Shown here in pieces: positions 3,318 through 49,431 of a stretch of DNA of 64,000 bases. The first letter of the stretch is position 1. The number at the start of each line of letters is the position of its first letter. The notes beneath the pieces are model-generated. The model made no database searches and had not been told where the DNA came from. It saw only the letters and a program-made list of their open reading frames with translations. This DNA comes from Algibacter amylolyticus (lineage in GTDB: Bacteria > Bacteroidota > Bacteroidia > Flavobacteriales > Flavobacteriaceae), in the NCBI RefSeq assembly GCF_014202225.1, contig NZ_JACHGE010000001.1, positions 43,320 to 107,319 on the forward strand. Reading direction: 5' to 3'. A program made the translations under genes and the position numbers.

Positions 3318-3425
3318 TTATTTGAAACGTCTTTTTGCATTCCAAACTAGTGAACTTGCGTTGCTAAATTTTTTAGTTTTTGTTCCTACTTTACTTTCTA
3401 CTACAATTCTGTTACTCGTTTTCAT
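3318..3425 (-). CDS. Small basic protein of 35 residues
   Basis: An ATG-to-TAA frame on the minus strand encodes a 35-residue Lys/Arg-rich protein (starts MKTSNRIVVESK, ends WNAKRRFK) without a signal peptide or membrane helix. Support for a real gene is a -7 element TAGTTTTG at 3460-3467 on the same strand and a terminator hairpin just past the stop. A nucleic-acid- or ribosome-associated peptide would fit the charge, but that is a guess. Confidence 0.5.
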   Translation of the reverse strand: MKTSNRIVVESKVGTKTKKFSNASSLVWNAKRRFK

Positions 3426-3459
3426 AATGTATTAATTTTCATGGGGTTTATTGCGGCTG

Positions 3460-3467
3460 CAAAACTA
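3460..3467 (-). promoter_or_regulatory. -7 element for the 35-residue gene
   Basis: On the minus strand this reads TAGTTTTG, an exact TAnnTTTG, 35 bp upstream of the start at 3425. Confidence 0.45.
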
Positions 3468-3745
3468 ACCCCTTAATAATCAATGAGAAACAACACACTT
3501 GATGCATATATATGCTATATTAACCCCAAAGAAGATAAAAACGCCTTACATCTGATAATTCAATCATTTTGAGGTAAATGCCTTTTCTAGAAAGTGGAGT
3601 AAAACACTAATTTTTAAGGTTTTTAAACATAAAAACACTTCTGCACCTATTATCTTTTTAGCGTATTAAACTGACTAACAACAAACAATTGTTAAATAAT
3701 TACTTATTTTAAACTACTAAACTTTTCCCTTTTAAACTTTTACAT
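3468..3745. other. Intergenic between divergent promoters
   Basis: No coding frame is visible. It contains a 6-4-6 inverted repeat (AAATAA, TTAC, TTATTT at 3694-3709) about 40 bp upstream of the feoAB -7 element. That could be an iron-responsive operator, but it does not match the palindrome found at the DtxR gene. Confidence 0.35.
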
Positions 3746-43105: not shown

Positions 43106-43110
43106 TACCC

Positions 43111-43773
43111 ATGACACCAGAAGATATTATAAACAAAACCAAAATTTTTGTTCAAGAAGAATTAACTAATGCTGAAGGTGGGCACGATTGGTTTCATATA
43201 GAACGGGTGTATAAAAACAGCCTATTAATTGCAAAGGCAGAACCTGTAGACACTTTTGTTGTTGCACTAGGCGCCTTACTTCATGATATTGCCGATAGTA
43301 AATTTCATAACGGCGATGAAACCATAGGACCAAAAAAAGCACGAGAATTTCTCTTTAAACTTAATGTAGACTCCAAAACCATAGAACATGTTGTAAACAT
43401 TATAAATAATATTTCGTTTAAATCTAGCTTATCCACTAATAATACAACAGCTTTTAGGTCGCCAGAACTAGATGTTGTGCAAGATGCCGACCGTTTAGAT
43501 GCTATAGGCGCCATTGGTATAGCGCGTTGTTTTAACTATGGAGGCTTTAAAAACCGAGCACTTTATAACCCAGATATTGAGCCTAATCTTAATATGACTA
43601 AAGCGGAATACAAAAACTCAACTGCACCAACTATAAATCATTTTTACGAAAAGCTGTTATTGCTAAAAGATAAAATGAATACTAAAACAGGTAAAAAGTT
43701 GGCAAATGCACGCCATGAGTATATGCTTGACTTCTTAAAGCAATTTTATAGCGAGTGGAATGGCGAAAAGTAA
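43111..43773 (+). CDS. HD-domain phosphohydrolase
   Basis: A 220-residue cytoplasmic metal-dependent hydrolase. HD-superfamily ligands are H in GGHDWFHIERV, HD in LLHDIADSKF and D in DVVQDADRLDA, as in YedJ-like proteins acting on nucleotides. The open frame extends 21 codons upstream into the previous gene, but MTPEDIINK at 43111 fits the family. It is the last gene of the PlsC-desaturase strand group. Confidence 0.88.
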   Translation: MTPEDIINKTKIFVQEELTNAEGGHDWFHIERVYKNSLLIAKAEPVDTFVVALGALLHDIADSKFHNGDETIGPKKAREFLFKLNVDSKTIEHVVNIINNISFKSSLSTNNTTAFRSPELDVVQDADRLDAIGAIGIARCFNYGGFKNRALYNPDIEPNLNMTKAEYKNSTAPTINHFYEKLLLLKDKMNTKTGKKLANARHEYMLDFLKQFYSEWNGEK

Positions 43774-43858: not shown

Positions 43859-44734
43859 TTATTGAATCATTAATTTGATCTCCTTGCGGTAGCTAGACGC
43901 ACTTTTACCTGTAATGTCGTTAAATACCTTATTAAAGTGTGAAAAGTTATTAAAACCGCACTCAAAACAAACGTCGGCAATACTCATTTCACTTTCTTCC
44001 GATAGTAATTTTGTAGCGTGTACCACACGATACTCATTAACCACCTGTGTAAAAGTTTTACTAGTAGCCTTTTTAAAGTAACGACAAAAAGCAGGAACCG
44101 TCATACTTACTATATCTGCAATTTCATCTAAAGCAATATGATGTTGAAAATTTTCGCGAATATATTTAAATACCGATCCTATTTTAGCACTTTCCTGCGC
44201 TTCGGCTTCAAAAGCAAATCCATCGGCATTCAATAAGGTGTAATCATCTGTTTTAGCTAAATAGTTTAAAATTTCTAAAAACTTTAAAACACGTTTTAAA
44301 CCATCATGTTCTAAAAGCTTTTCAATTTTAAGTCCTATTTTCTTTTTGGTATCAATTTGAAAACGAATACCTTTTTTAGCACGCTCAAAAAGCGCTACAA
44401 TATTTGCCATTTCCGGCACATTAAGAAAATCTTCGCCTAAAAAATCAGATTTAAACTGTATGATGGTCTCTGTTCCGTTGGCTGTAAGCCTATCAGAAAA
44501 CCCATTATGCGGTAAATTAGCACCTATTAATATAAGTTGACTATTATTAAAGTAAGATAAATGGTTACCAATATGTGTTTTTCCTTGTCCTTTATTAACG
44601 TAAACCAACTCCATTTCTGGATGAAAATGCCAGAAAGCGTTGAGTCTATCTGCCTGTTTCAAGTGTTGTTTAACCAAAATTGAACTTCCAAAACTTGGGG
44701 TAAGTTTCTCTAAAGTAGGTTTCTTTTTAATCAT
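43859..44734 (-). CDS. AraC-family regulator beside the paralogous cassettes
   Basis: A 291-residue regulator with an N-terminal cupin (about 20-90, FWHFHPEMELVYVNKGQGKT) and two helix-turn-helix units at the C-terminus (about 195-285, ALDEIADIVSMTVPAFCRYF and IADVCFECGFNNFSHFNKVF). It is divergent from the first of four paralogous exported-protein cassettes and is the natural candidate to control them. Cupin-containing AraC proteins often sense sugars, but the ligand here is not predictable. Confidence 0.88.
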   Translation of the reverse strand: MIKKKPTLEKLTPSFGSSILVKQHLKQADRLNAFWHFHPEMELVYVNKGQGKTHIGNHLSYFNNSQLILIGANLPHNGFSDRLTANGTETIIQFKSDFLGEDFLNVPEMANIVALFERAKKGIRFQIDTKKKIGLKIEKLLEHDGLKRVLKFLEILNYLAKTDDYTLLNADGFAFEAEAQESAKIGSVFKYIRENFQHHIALDEIADIVSMTVPAFCRYFKKATSKTFTQVVNEYRVVHATKLLSEESEMSIADVCFECGFNNFSHFNKVFNDITGKSASSYRKEIKLMIQ

Positions 44735-44837
44735 GCGAGCAATAATTTAAAGCAAATTTACTACATATTATGCATACATTGTATATTTAATTACCTTAAA
44801 TATATGCTATTTTAACTTAACAATGAATTAACGTTAT

Positions 44838-44909
44838 ATTAACAGTTAATCTAGCATATAAAGTGGTCAAAATTGATGTTTTCTTAACTCCCCTTCTACC
44901 ATACCTTTG
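44838..44909 (+). promoter_or_regulatory. Cassette 1 upstream element and promoter
   Basis: A 13-bp palindrome ATTAACAGTTAAT (44838-44850), a conserved stretch ending TGATGTTTT near 44883, and the -7 element TACCTTTG (44902-44909). Distance from palindrome start to -7 end is 72 bp, the same in all four cassettes. Confidence 0.7.
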
Positions 44910-44938
44910 TACCGTTGAACATTATGACCCCCATAATT

Positions 44939-45532
44939 ATGAAAAACACATTTAAAAGTACAAAGAAAGGAATCCTAATGGTAGCATTATTAGCTACGTT
45001 TATAGGGTTTGCAAAAGACTCTAATTCACTTATTAAAAAAGGAGCTAGAGAAACAGCCTTAGTATTAGAAAACGTAAAAGTTGGTAACCTACTTACCATT
45101 AAAGACAATTACGGAATTATACTATACAAAGAAGCAATTAAAATTAAAGGTATATATACTAAAGGATTTGATTTAACTGAATTGCCAAATGGTGAATATG
45201 TTTTTGAACTTGAAAAAGATTTAGAAATTAATACAATCCCGTTTACAGTAGCAAATAGTGTTGTAAGTTTTGATAAAACAGCAGAAACGACTACTTATAA
45301 ACCTTACGTAAAGCAAGAGAACGGTTTAGTTTATGTAACAAAATTTAATCCAGAGCTTAAGGAAACAACTATTAATGTTTATGCTCTTGAAGGTACAGAA
45401 GCAACATTACGTTTCTCTGAAGAAATTACGAATAGTCAAACTATCGAAAAAGTATTCAAATTAAGAAAAGGAAATTACAAAATAGAAATAAGCTCAGAAA
45501 ACAATGAGCATACAGTATTCATTAATAATTAG
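44939..45532 (+). CDS. Exported paralogous protein, cassette 1
   Basis: A 197-residue protein with an N-terminal signal sequence (KGILMVALLATFIGFA). The mature part contains GNLLTIKDNYGIILYKEAI, YTKGFDLTELPNGEYVFELE and IPFTVANSVVSFDK, a beta-sandwich-like pattern ending TVFINN. No known family is recognised; the segment FDLTxLPxGxYxFEL resembles type IX sorting-domain strands, but the end lacks a sorting motif. Upstream in-frame TTG and ATG codons exist, but paralogues 2-4 all begin at MKN/MKK, so 44939 is used. It is one of four tandem copies. Confidence 0.82.
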   Translation: MKNTFKSTKKGILMVALLATFIGFAKDSNSLIKKGARETALVLENVKVGNLLTIKDNYGIILYKEAIKIKGIYTKGFDLTELPNGEYVFELEKDLEINTIPFTVANSVVSFDKTAETTTYKPYVKQENGLVYVTKFNPELKETTINVYALEGTEATLRFSEEITNSQTIEKVFKLRKGNYKIEISSENNEHTVFINN

Positions 45533-45564
45533 TTTAATGTCTTATTTAGTTTAGTTTAGTTTGT

Positions 45565-45596
45565 AAAAGTGGGCTGTGGTGGCCCACTTTTTATGT
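45565..45596 (+). terminator. Cassette 1 terminator
   Basis: Stem AAAAGTGGGCT / GGCCCACTTTTT around GTGGT. The GTGGGCT...CCCAC hairpin recurs after cassettes 2, 3 and 4. Confidence 0.85.
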
Positions 45597-45726
45597 TTTA
45601 ATATCTCCTTAAAACATCTAAACTTCTATATCTCCATTAAAATTTAAAGCACTCTTTACGTTAACTCATTTCAAAAAAAAGAGTAAGGTTTTTATCTATG
45701 TTAAATTAACCTAAAAATGATGCAAA

Positions 45727-45798
45727 ATTAACAGTTAATTTAGCATACAAATCCATCAAAACCAATGTTTTATAAGGCTTTTTAACGTTATATATTTG
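45727..45798 (+). promoter_or_regulatory. Cassette 2 upstream element and promoter
   Basis: Palindrome ATTAACAGTTAAT (45727-45739) and -7 element TATATTTG (45791-45798), 72 bp overall, with the shared stretch TTAGCATACAAATCCATCAA between. Confidence 0.72.
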
Positions 45799-45825
45799 TA
45801 GTGTTAATTAATAACAACACGCATT

Positions 45826-46419
45826 ATGAAAAAGACAATGAAAAACACGAAAAAAGCAATTTTAATGGTAGCATTTTTAGCTACAGTAGTAGGATTTGCA
45901 AACGACTCTAATTCACTTATTAAAAAAGGAGCTAAAAAAACAGCAATCGTATTAAAAAATGTAAAAGTTGGTAACCTATTAACTATTAAAGATAATTACG
46001 GTATTGTTTTATATAAAGAAGCTATTAAAACAGAAGGTTCATACACTAAAGGATTTGATTTAACACAATTACCAGATGGAGACTATGTTTTTGAACTTGA
46101 AAAAGATTTAGAAATTAACACCATCCCTTTTACTGTATTACATAACCAAGTAACTTTTAATAAAACCGACGAGGTTACTTACTTTAAGCCTTACGTAAAA
46201 CAAGATCAAGATTTAGTTTATGTAACAAAACTAAATCCAGAACTTAAAGAAACAACTATTAATGTATATGCTATTAATGGTACAGAATCAACACTTCGTT
46301 TCTCTGAGAAAATCACGAACACTCAATCTATCGAAAAAGTATTCAAATTAACAAAAGGAAATTTTAAAATTGAAATAAACTCTGGTAATAAAGAGTATAC
46401 AACATTCATTAATAATTAG
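45826..46419 (+). CDS. Exported paralogous protein, cassette 2
   Basis: A 197-residue paralogue of cassette 1, and its closest match (most residues identical by eye). Signal peptide AILMVAFLATVVGFA; same segments (NLLTIKDNYGIVLYKEAIK, GFDLTQLPDGDYVFELEK) and the C-terminus YTTFINN. Start at ATG 45826, 27 bp after the -7 element. It is followed by the shared GTGGGCT hairpin terminator. Confidence 0.82.
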   Translation: MKKTMKNTKKAILMVAFLATVVGFANDSNSLIKKGAKKTAIVLKNVKVGNLLTIKDNYGIVLYKEAIKTEGSYTKGFDLTQLPDGDYVFELEKDLEINTIPFTVLHNQVTFNKTDEVTYFKPYVKQDQDLVYVTKLNPELKETTINVYAINGTESTLRFSEKITNTQSIEKVFKLTKGNFKIEINSGNKEYTTFINN

Positions 46420-46449
46420 TTTAATGTCTTATTTAGTTTAGTTTAGTTG

Positions 46450-46477
46450 TAAAGTGGGCTGTGGTGGCCCACTTTCA
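46450..46477 (+). terminator. Cassette 2 terminator
   Basis: Stem AAAGTGGGCT / GGCCCACTTT, as in cassette 1. Confidence 0.85.
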
Positions 46478-46615
46478 TTTTTATATAATATCTTGATTTT
46501 CCAAATGCTTTTAACAGCATTTTTTTTTGCTTTAAATGTAACGATCTTCCCTTAAAATTCATCTTAAATTAAACCACTTTTAGGACACATTAAGTTTACC
46601 TAAAAATGATGCAAA

Positions 46616-46687
46616 ATTAACAGTTAATTTAGCACATAAATTAGTCAATACCAGTGTTTTACAGCACCCTAATCTACTATATATTTG
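46616..46687 (+). promoter_or_regulatory. Cassette 3 upstream element and promoter
   Basis: Palindrome ATTAACAGTTAAT (46616-46628) and -7 element TATATTTG (46680-46687), 72 bp overall. Confidence 0.72.
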
Positions 46688-46714
46688 TATTGTTGAACGT
46701 TAATACACCCTATT

Positions 46715-47326
46715 ATGAAAAACACAATTAAAAACTCGAAAAAAGGAATCTTAATGGTAACATTGTTTGCTACCTTATTAAGTTTCGCAAATGAAGCTAA
46801 ATTAATTAATATTAAAAACGAGGCTAAAAAAACGTCACTAACCTTAAACAATGTAAAACAAGGCAACTTACTATCTGTAAAAGATGCATTTGGTATAACA
46901 CTATATAAAGAAATCATTCAAGAAACTGGAAGCTACACAAAAGGTTTCGATTTAACGGTTTTACCAAATGGCGATTATCTTTTTGAACTTAATAAAGACC
47001 TAGAAATTAAGACAATACCTTTTACAGTAAAGTCTAGTATAGTGTCTTTTAATAAAGATAAAGAAACCACTGTTTTTAAACCAACTGTGCGCGTAGAAGG
47101 TGATCTTGTATTTGTATCGAAACTTACTTTAGAAGGAAACCCTTTAAATATTAAGGTTTACTATACAGAAAAAGGATCTAATAATTCAGATTTAATTTTT
47201 TCTGAAGATATTGAAAACACTAAGATTATAGAACGCACATTTAAATTAGAAAACCAAGAACTAGGATCTTTTAAAATTGTAATTCTTTCTGAAGGAAACG
47301 AATTTATTAAATACATAAATTCTTAA
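46715..47326 (+). CDS. Exported paralogous protein, cassette 3
   Basis: A 203-residue diverged paralogue with signal GILMVTLFATLLSFA, NLLSVKDAFGITLYKEII, GFDLTVLPNGDYLFELNK and a longer C-terminal half ending FIKYINS. Start at ATG 46715, 27 bp after the -7 element. The N-terminal half is best conserved with copies 1, 2 and 4. Confidence 0.82.
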   Translation: MKNTIKNSKKGILMVTLFATLLSFANEAKLINIKNEAKKTSLTLNNVKQGNLLSVKDAFGITLYKEIIQETGSYTKGFDLTVLPNGDYLFELNKDLEIKTIPFTVKSSIVSFNKDKETTVFKPTVRVEGDLVFVSKLTLEGNPLNIKVYYTEKGSNNSDLIFSEDIENTKIIERTFKLENQELGSFKIVILSEGNEFIKYINS

Positions 47327-47347
47327 TCTCTAACCAAACCAGATACT

Positions 47348-47377
47348 AAAAGTGGGCTAAACCAGCCCACTTTCTTT
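47348..47377 (+). terminator. Cassette 3 terminator
   Basis: Stem AAAGTGGGCT / AGCCCACTTT with loop AAACC. Confidence 0.85.
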
Positions 47378-47521
47378 AAATTTTACAGCATGTTTATTTC
47401 TCAAGCCTACTATTGCAACCATATCCACAAACAAAAAAAATTCAAATTAGAACAGGAGAAATCCAATAAACTAATAAACAGTGAATTGCAAAACCAAAAT
47501 ACGACTGTTATAAAACAAAAA

Positions 47522-47719
47522 ATGAGCAATAATTGGAATAAAAAAGGTGTGTTTTATTCTATATGGATTATACTCAATTTAGTAGTTCTTTCAAGTTTAT
47601 TTCATTTCATCTCTAAAACCGACTGGCTCTTCTTATATTTTGTAGTAACATTTATATATTGCTCACTATATTGGATGCTTGCAGAACTAGTATTTAACAA
47701 GTTATTTGTTAAAAATTAA
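47522..47719 (+). CDS. Small two-helix membrane protein between cassettes 3 and 4
   Basis: A 65-residue protein (MSNNWNKKGVFYSIWIILNL, then a second helix WLFLYFVVTFIYCSLYWMLA) inserted between two cassettes. The open frame extends upstream to 47390, adding 44 residues without a signal or known domain; MSNNWNKK reads as the more natural start. It is not related to the cassette proteins. It may be a remnant of the insertion that lengthened this spacer. Confidence 0.5.
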   Translation: MSNNWNKKGVFYSIWIILNLVVLSSLFHFISKTDWLFLYFVVTFIYCSLYWMLAELVFNKLFVKN

Positions 47720-47782
47720 CAACTAAATTTTTAGCCAAAACTGGTAAAGAATTATCTCCTAATACTACATAAAAATTTATAT

Positions 47783-47808
47783 TAAGAGTGGACACTAGTC
47801 CACTTTTT
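47783..47808 (+). terminator. Terminator after the small membrane gene
   Basis: Stem AAGAGTGGAC / GTCCACTTTT with a T run. It is similar in shape, but not identical, to the cassette hairpins. Confidence 0.75.
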
Positions 47809-47876
47809 TAATGCTTATTATTCTCAACTTTTACTGAACATTAAGTAACATTATTTTTACCTTAAAATGATGCAAA

Positions 47877-47948
47877 ATTAACAGGTAATCTAACACATAA
47901 ATTGGTCAATACCAATGTTTTAAATAACATTATTGCGTTCTATATTTG
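47877..47948 (+). promoter_or_regulatory. Cassette 4 upstream element and promoter
   Basis: Near-palindrome ATTAACAGGTAAT (47877-47889, one mismatch) and -7 element TATATTTG (47941-47948), again 72 bp overall. Here the middle also holds ATTGGT-CAAT-ACCAAT, a perfect 6-4-6 inverted repeat. Confidence 0.72.
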
Positions 47949-47974
47949 TAGTGTTGAACGTTAATACCCCTATT

Positions 47975-48580
47975 ATGAAAAACACAATTAAAAACTCAAA
48001 AAAAGGAATCTTAATGGTAATTATGTTTACTACCATGCTAAGTTTCGCAAACAATGCTTCTCTATTTAATATTAAAAATGAAGCTAAAAGAACCTCACTT
48101 ACTTTACTAAATGTAAAGCAAGGAAACTTACTATCCGTAAAAGATGTAAATGGCATAGTTTTATATAAAGAGTCCATGCAAAAATCTGGAAACTACACAA
48201 AAGGATTCGATCTAACAGCTTTACCAGATGGCTCGTATGTTTTTGAGCTAGATAAAGACATGGAAATTAACACGATACCTTTTACGGTAAAGTCAAATAT
48301 TGTTCTTTTCGATAAGGAAAAGGAAACCACTATTTACAAGCCTATGTTTGTGGTAAAAGACAATGTAGTTATGCTAACAAAATTAGCACTTAAAGAAGCT
48401 CCTTGCCATATCAAAATATACTTTTTAGGCGATCATGGCGAAGAATTAATGCATGCTGAAACTGTAGAAAACACTAAAACTATAACAAAAGCTTACAAAC
48501 TTGCTGGCTTGAAGTATGGTGGATACAAAATTGTATGCAACTCGGATGGCAGAGAATTCACAAAAGCTATAAACATCTAA
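47975..48580 (+). CDS. Exported paralogous protein, cassette 4
   Basis: A 201-residue paralogue closest to cassette 3 in its N-terminal half (signal GILMVIMFTTMLSFA; NLLSVKDVNGIVLYKESM; GFDLTALPDGSYVFELDKD), with a diverged C-terminal half. An upstream in-frame start at 47933 would precede the promoter, so ATG 47975 is used. It closes the array. Confidence 0.82.
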   Translation: MKNTIKNSKKGILMVIMFTTMLSFANNASLFNIKNEAKRTSLTLLNVKQGNLLSVKDVNGIVLYKESMQKSGNYTKGFDLTALPDGSYVFELDKDMEINTIPFTVKSNIVLFDKEKETTIYKPMFVVKDNVVMLTKLALKEAPCHIKIYFLGDHGEELMHAETVENTKTITKAYKLAGLKYGGYKIVCNSDGREFTKAINI

Positions 48581-48604
48581 ATACCTAATTTAGAAACTGT
48601 TGAT

Positions 48605-48634
48605 AAAGGTGGGCTAATTTAGCCCACTTTTTTG
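48605..48634 (+). terminator. Cassette 4 terminator
   Basis: Stem AAGGTGGGCTAA / TTAGCCCACTTT followed by T; it may also serve the convergent crotonase gene. Confidence 0.82.
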
Positions 48635-48648
48635 TTGGCATAACTCAA

Positions 48649-49431
48649 TTATTTCCCCGGAAAATCAGCCTTACGTTTTTGCAGGAAAGCTGTAGTTCCT
48701 TCTTCAAAATCATCGGTACCAAAACAGTTTCCAAATTCCAGAACCTCAACACTAAACCCATCTACACCATCCTTAAAATTAGCATTTATGGCGCGTATAG
48801 CTGCACTAATTGCAACGGTTGAATTTCGGGAAATTTTAGCTGCTATTTTTTCGCAAAGCGGAAGTAATTCATCTTGCGTAGTAACATGATTTACTAAGCC
48901 ATAACTTAAAGCTTGGTTAGCATCAATCATGCCTGCTGTCATAATCATCTCCATAGCGCGCCCTTTGCCCACCAATTGCGGTAAACGCTGTGTACCTCCA
49001 TAACCAGGAATAACACCAAGAGACACCTCCGGAAGCCCTAATTTAGCATTATCGCTAGCTACTCTAAAATGAGCAGCCATAGCCAACTCTAAACCTCCGC
49101 CAAGTGCAAAGCCATTAACTGCAGCAATGACTGGAGTAGATAAATTTTCGACAAAATTGAATAATAACTCCTGTCCTTTTGCCGCTAATTGTGTGCCTTT
49201 ACTAACATCGAAATCTGAAAACTCGCTTATATCTGCTCCTGCAACAAAGGCTTTTTCTCCGCTACCGGTTACAATAATAACCTTAGTATCAGCATCGTTA
49301 TCTGCATGGTTAAAAGCTTCGTGTAACTCCTGTATAGTCTCTCTATTTAAGGCGTTTAGCTTTTTAGACCGATTAATAGTTATGGTTGTTATGCCATTAT
49401 TTTCTTCTGAAATGATGTTGTTATAACTCAT
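48649..49431 (-). CDS. Enoyl-CoA hydratase/isomerase (crotonase family)
   Basis: A 260-residue cytoplasmic enzyme of fatty-acid beta-oxidation or related acyl-CoA chemistry. The oxyanion-hole segment is AFVAGADISEF (near residue 60), followed by NGFALGGGLELAMAAH and the catalytic region LPEVSLGVIPGYGGTQRLP with two active-site acids. Exact substrate is uncertain. It is the first gene of a minus-strand run. Confidence 0.92.
   Translation of the reverse strand: MSYNNIISEENNGITTITINRSKKLNALNRETIQELHEAFNHADNDADTKVIIVTGSGEKAFVAGADISEFSDFDVSKGTQLAAKGQELLFNFVENLSTPVIAAVNGFALGGGLELAMAAHFRVASDNAKLGLPEVSLGVIPGYGGTQRLPQLVGKGRAMEMIMTAGMIDANQALSYGLVNHVTTQDELLPLCEKIAAKISRNSTVAISAAIRAINANFKDGVDGFSVEVLEFGNCFGTDDFEEGTTAFLQKRKADFPGK

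Follow-up and report, generated by a model that had tools for sequence, protein, structure and literature searches.

A candidate AraC-family regulon for exported two-domain proteins in Algibacter amylolyticus

The window analyzed here is a 64,000-nucleotide stretch of the Algibacter amylolyticus genome (4.35 Mb). It carries four tandem genes for paralogous, apparently exported proteins beside a divergent gene for an AraC-type protein. We consider, with a probability of about 0.7, that these genes belong to a small dedicated AraC-family regulon that serves abundant exported two-domain proteins and a distant small-peptide gene. Sequence comparison provides the evidence: the paralogy of the four genes, their cassette structure, the conservation of an operator, the presence of its half-site in the araC promoter, the co-occurrence of regulator and targets, codon bias, and purifying selection.

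We infer a mechanism in which the AraC-type protein would sense a small molecule through its N-terminal half and act on its own promoter. Through a half-site some 50 bp 5' of the -7 element, it would also activate the four monocistronic genes and the distant small-peptide gene. The products would be exported and probably accumulate in large amounts in the periplasm, at the surface or in the surroundings, where they would bind or coat something. Domain 1 is the part that all share and conserve, whereas domain 2 is freer to change. This pairing of a conserved and a freer domain suggests a shared anchor or partner combined with a target that varies. Tandem duplication would have raised the dosage and yielded a few stable sub-types. 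Given how these genera live, the signal could plausibly be related to carbohydrates.

Cassettes, operator and regulator

The four genes are on the plus strand and start at 44939, 45826, 46715 and 47975. They encode proteins of 197, 197, 203 and 201 amino acids, and copies B, C and D are 77, 55 and 49% identical to copy A. Copies A (44939 to 45532), B (45826 to 46419), C (46715 to 47326) and D (47975 to 48580) were assigned by open reading frame (ORF), paralogy and position in the tree; for copy C there is also an AlphaFold model (m810ed4a28308). Each gene lies in a cassette of promoter, gene and hairpin terminator. The GTGGGCT-type hairpins, located on the plus strand by a hairpin search, lie 3' of all four genes (45565 to 45591, 46451 to 46475, 47349 to 47373 and 48605 to 48631). 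The start-to-start distances are exactly 887 bp from A to B and 889 bp from B to C. Copy D starts 1260 bp past the start of copy C because a 109-amino-acid ORF with its own hairpin sits in between. Across the 109 non-redundant copies gathered in total, terminator-like hairpins follow 95, compared to 28 of 545 shuffled sequences. The sequence-only reading, a description made from the letters of the window, had reported these paralogous cassettes, their coordinates, the 887/889-bp spacing, the terminators and the 72-bp promoter distance described below correctly, and comparison with relatives supports its proposal that the unit of duplication runs from promoter to terminator.

Each promoter consists of a conserved block, a 19-bp spacer and a -7 element, which is TACCTTTG in copy A (44838 to 44909) and TATATTTG in copies B (45727 to 45798), C (46616 to 46687) and D (47877 to 47948), all on the plus strand. 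The Bacteroidetes sigma-A -7 box TAnnTTTG, given as the flavobacterial sigma-A -7 consensus in PMC9723704, is present upstream of all four genes. The distance from the start of a palindrome to the end of the -7 element is exactly 72 bp in all four cassettes. The palindrome itself, ATTAACAGTTAAT, which the sequence-only reading had named as conserved, is exact in three of the four copies at the locus, being imperfect in copy D (ATTAACAGGTAAT), and in four of 104 copies across genomes, where the commonest form is ATTAACAGATAAT (15 copies), and it was dropped as the operator. What is conserved in relatives is a longer block, GnTAAnnTAGCATATAAAttgGTCAAAATcaATGTTTT-N19-TAnnTTTG. A TAnnTTTG element lies 20 to 65 nucleotides 5' of the chosen start in 104 of the 109 copies; five have none in that range. 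Aligned on the -7 element, these 104 copies give the consensus TAAcaGaTAA.aTAGCAtAtAAAtt.gTcAAaATcaATGTTTT-N19-TAnnTTTG, and 98 of them have an NTGNTTT box precisely 19 bp 5' of that element. An inverted second half-site scores above the 99th percentile of shuffles upstream of the block in 76 of the 104 copies; the most frequent gap, of 28 bp, occurs in 50 copies.

The adjoining gene (43859 to 44734, minus strand) encodes a 291-amino-acid protein that is 98% identical to its counterpart in a related genome (G002). Its C-terminal HTH_18 domain scores 72 bits against a cut-off of 33.6, which places it in the AraC/XylS family. The N-terminal half contains a cupin-like HxHPE...LPH pattern, invariant among aligned orthologues, and falls under the Pfam cut-offs for AraC_binding (16.1 versus 21.1 bits) and Cupin_2 (17.3 versus 27.2 bits). 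The alignment has 80 invariant columns (24 rows, with the locus protein entered twice), and matches from a sequence search of the PDB cover the C-terminal half only. The araC promoter has its -7 element, TAAATTTG, at 44753 to 44760 on the minus strand, 26 nucleotides before the araC start. An inverted half-site, GTTAAAATAGCATATATT (44799 to 44816, minus strand), places TAGCA 49 bp upstream of this -7 element and is likely an autoregulatory site. The distance from half-site to -7 element is 49 bp in 43 of 53 araC loci and 50 bp in three more, and it is 50 bp in the target promoters. Moreover, the inverted half-site of the targets, read on the opposite strand, is the half-site of the araC promoter. 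This operator geometry, common to araC and its neighbours, is the main ground for naming the AraC-type protein the regulator of both. Together with co-occurrence and the retention of sites at unlinked araC genes, it upholds the earlier suggestion that the divergent gene is the likely regulator, and the protein very probably regulates the four genes.

The locus resembles AraC/XylS activator systems in the C-terminal HTH_18 domain, in the block directly upstream of a -33/-7 promoter, and in the divergent araC gene carrying the same half-site. It differs in its targets. The usual targets of AraC/XylS activators are catabolic enzymes, whereas those predicted here are small exported proteins and peptides. 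Literature searches gave nothing on Flavobacteri with AraC, and among the matches listed for Algibacter/AraC with secreted protein, none concerned Algibacter by title.

The putative regulon extends beyond the array. A pattern search allowing up to three mismatches found five matches in the 4.35-Mb genome and none for a reversed-pattern control; the element is therefore not a product of chance. A model built from 40 of 87 eligible upstream sequences recovers the same five sites, the four known ones at E values of 1e-19 to 9e-15 and the fifth at 2.2e-4, with the next-best match at 0.02. The fifth operator/promoter (3457 to 3524, minus strand) has TAGCA 50 bp before a -7 element, TAGTTTTG, and precedes a gene for a 35-amino-acid basic peptide, MKTSNRIVVESKVGTKTKKFSNASSLVWNAKRRFK (3318 to 3425, minus strand). 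This peptide occurs in three of 40 genomes, and the site precedes its gene in all three (the others being G008 and G009). In other genomes, the same site lies before a 45-amino-acid membrane-type peptide (G004 and G006), MYLT-type ORFs (G005, G007 and G015) or a 56-amino-acid MFISQ ORF (G023). Further weak model matches in six genomes (G001, G010, G019, G024, G033 and G034) have no gene in common. The fifth operator and its peptide gene sit between SCO1-like and FeoB-like genes, named by inspection, 41 kb from the array; the distance is 31 to 35 kb in G009 and G008. The MYLT-type ORFs (L040:4445-4681, L038:5062-5391 and L165:1766-2108 in G007, G005 and G015, respectively) lie in the gap from which araC diverges, and a Pfam search with the first of them gave no match.

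It is possible, as a tentative extension, that the AraC-type protein is a one-purpose autoregulated sensor whose whole output consists of tandem-DUF3244-like proteins for export and of very small peptides, basic or membrane-type, that vary with the species. If true, the system would serve as an inducible protein coat, matrix or means of capture; its sensor and domain 1 would be fixed, while domain 2 and the peptide would be swapped. It would also provide the first regulatory context for DUF3244-type domains, for which structures have already been solved. The locus connects a tandem version of such domains with a single sensor and a single operator, in a promoter geometry that is fixed across the Flavobacteriaceae. 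Since the 4.35-Mb genome has just five clear sites, the specificity of the operator is such that the function could be tested directly once an inducer is known, with the araC promoter as a simple reporter.

The exported proteins

All four products look exported, with signal-peptide-like N-termini, and each appears to be built from a tandem pair of Ig-like domains with a relationship to DUF3244 (PF11589; structures 3d33 and 4g5a). The sequence-only reading recognized no known family. This holds for the four copies themselves, none of which reaches the cut-off of any Pfam or NCBIfam model, but not for all of their relatives: three of 20 that were scanned singly reach the DUF3244 cut-off (L058 with 26.2, L062 with 26.0, and L077 with 34.6 bits, the last in two stretches), with the other 17 below it or without a match. 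In a VIA-align fold comparison, which covers mostly residues 96 to 203, DUF3244 is the top match of domain 2, tied with unrelated Ig folds. An hhalign comparison of domains 1 and 2 as possible repeats of each other gives a probability of 18.6% (E 2.7e-4). The exported proteins differ from DUF3244 proteins in having two tandem domains instead of one, and the locus copies differ further in their sub-cut-off scores, dedicated AraC-type regulator and tandem array. A sequence search of the PDB with the exported proteins gave no significant match (best E 0.35), and a literature search found no DUF3244 with Flavobacteri, DUF3244 being named solely in table entries in the excerpts returned.

The fold comparison also matched RbmA, the biofilm scaffolding protein of Vibrio cholerae. 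The identity is 4% over 83 residues and the match is tied with unrelated Ig folds; an RbmA-like matrix role is retained only as an analogy, and a literature search found no link of RbmA with Bacteroidetes. In isopeptide-forming domains, the first and last strands carry a conserved lysine and an asparagine or aspartate, which are accompanied by an acidic residue. A CnaB/SpyCatcher-type isopeptide domain 1 was ruled out by residue conservation.

Codon usage suggests that copies A and B are strongly expressed. With the ribosomal operon as reference, copies A to D reach codon adaptation values of 0.70, 0.78, 0.66 and 0.57, compared to a mean of 0.564 for 50 ORFs of the window. Over all loci, the best copy exceeds its best neighbour in 53 of 58 cases, with no difference between first and last copies. 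Several copies with high codon adaptation and near-identical promoters are what would be expected of a pure gene-dosage array, in which interchangeable copies are kept to make more of one product. This is the most tenable of the alternatives, yet it is unlikely, as the copies are old and distinct. A tree of 103 rows (six of the 109 copies were omitted, L050 to L053 as too distant and two for their length) separates an old proximal clade of 37 rows, including copies A and B, from a distal clade of 46 rows, including C and D, with later duplications in addition. Both clades are represented in eight of the ten genomes of the genus. Copies C and D share 61% identity over the whole protein and 42% in domain 2; each pairs with one A. 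pectinivorans copy (80 and 82% identity), and A and B jointly pair with a third.

Another explanation is that the proteins are cargo of the type IX secretion system (T9SS), bearing C-terminal sorting domains and ending on the surface or outside. Both domains do show weak sequence similarity to the type A sorting domain (TIGR04183/PF18962), and there is a fold match to the C-terminal domain of RgpB. However, copies A, B and D score 19.7, 18.2 and 20.4 bits for PF18962 (cut-off 27), copy C having no match, and A and D score 16.7 and 13.5 bits for TIGR04183 (cut-off 23), with B and C unmatched. None of 40 family members reaches the PF18962 cut-off, the best scoring 24.9 bits (E 2.6e-5). Furthermore, six of the eight Por_Secre_tail stretches that could be placed lie on domain 1 rather than at the C-terminus, and there is no separate cargo domain. 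Export as T9SS cargo therefore seems doubtful.

Distribution and co-occurrence

A profile of the four proteins matched 27 of 60 related genomes, own genome included. Short matches within larger reading frames in G042, G043 and G056 were excluded as members, and G011 has partial matches only. The other nine genomes of the genus each contain one to three copies, and copies per locus range from one to five. Forty-five loci are from named genomes, among them Algibacter, Mariniflexile, Seonamhaeicola, Tamlana, Flavivirga, Confluentibacter, Hyunsoonleella, Yeosuana, Flaviramulus and Polaribacter. In a class-wide sample, eight of 247 genomes, again counting its own, match at E <= 1e-8.

Orthologues of the AraC-type protein, at least 294 bits compared to 207 for the next paralogue, are encoded in 26 of the 60 genomes. 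At the search thresholds used, 23 genomes have both orthologue and exported proteins, three the orthologue alone, one the proteins alone and 33 neither. The protein-alone genome (G035) has an AraC orthologue beside its exported-protein gene, split into two overlapping frames, which is either a sequencing error or a decaying gene. As for the three genomes with the orthologue alone, G040 contains a divergent family member missed by the first profile (it scores 42 bits with a profile built from the full set of 103 members and 238 bits against the member in G053), G021 a weak 113-amino-acid relative (18 bits), and G015 an operator site before a small MYLT-type ORF. The regulator-target pair also occurs in a second family (f5: G053 and G040). 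The 113-amino-acid ORF of G021 (L194) is of single-domain size and is arranged divergently with the AraC orthologue; it may hint at an ancestor with one domain.

An AraC match is present at 40 of the 45 named loci. The remaining five genomes (L061, L074, L077, L078 and L088) encode an orthologue 78 to 83% identical elsewhere or on another contig, the L074 and L078 loci being cut by a contig end. By eye, the unlinked araC promoters hold both sites in all four cases with upstream sequence. G023 has five copies and no linked araC; its seven operator-model matches are at the five copies, at the distant araC gene and before the 56-amino-acid ORF. AraC orthologues are present in 20 of the 21 genomes with a model match at E <= 1e-3, although many of these genomes had themselves supplied training sites for the model.

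These data bear on whether the block might belong to another factor, with the adjacency of araC reflecting conserved gene order merely. The flanking genes are indeed conserved as well: an HD-domain gene (43108 to 43773) and an enoyl-CoA-hydratase-type gene (48649 to 49431; named by inspection) flank araC and the array, and most relatives have the order HD gene, divergent araC, one to five copies, enoyl-CoA hydratase. In addition, six genomes whose AraC orthologues are more distant (G011, G020, G021, G027, G040 and G053) give no match to the model. Nevertheless, control by another factor is improbable, considering that the half-site recurs in the araC promoter at an almost identical distance, that unlinked araC loci retain it, and that model matches and AraC orthologues coincide as described.

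Several results weigh against the proposed regulon. Besides the six genomes without a site, G024 has a model match (E 1.3e-4), probably by chance, without an AraC orthologue. The inverted upstream half-site is missing from copies C and D. The codon bias of copy D is average (rank 24 of 50). DUF3244 scores of 14.5, 12.8, 20.9 and 16.3 bits for copies A to D fall short of the gathering score of 25, and the fold match of domain 2 to this family is the tied one noted above. In one pair (the first copies of L074 and L077), dN/dS of domain 1 is as high as 0.53. Finally, the loci and genomes are related, and the counts given here overstate their independence.

Selection and minor features

The sequence-only reading described a shared N-terminal core and C-terminal divergence. 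In terms of domains, domain 2 is the more diverged, with identities of 0.48 versus 0.68 for domain 1 over all within-genome paralogue pairs. Whole-gene dN/dS is 0.12 to 0.30 in 17 orthologue/paralogue pairs, and it ranges from 0.09 to 0.53 for domain 1 and from 0.07 to 0.35 for domain 2, some dS values being close to saturation. Gene conversion as a general cause of the conserved 5' half was rejected: divergence at fourfold sites within genomes is alike in domains 1 and 2 (0.54 and 0.50). In the signal peptide it is 0.28 within and 0.34 between genomes; it is low between genomes too, and codon constraint is therefore the simpler cause. Copies 2 and 3 of L063 may have been converted in their 5' half, with fourfold differences at 0 of 10 sites in the signal peptide, 2 of 24 in domain 1 and 7 of 18 in domain 2. 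An antigen-like or surface-variant repertoire, in which regulation is fixed and the product is selected for variation, had been suggested from the sequence and would fit the greater divergence of domain 2 and the varying copy number, but it is the least probable explanation in light of the low whole-gene dN/dS, the lasting A. pectinivorans orthologues of C and D, and the fourfold-site values, which speak against general conversion or shuffling (L063 being a possible exception). Relatives that encode the exported proteins are, judged by their names, presumably mostly marine environmental bacteria.

The membrane-type ORF between copies C and D (47390 to 47719, plus strand; 109 amino acids, beginning MFISQAYYC) has no operator of its own in the model scan. 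Its N-terminal MFISQ.YYC weakly resembles the 56-amino-acid ORF of G023 (E 0.008). The ORF, whose family is unassigned, also occurs in A. pectinivorans (L034), and in the window it is followed by a terminator-like hairpin at 47784 to 47807.

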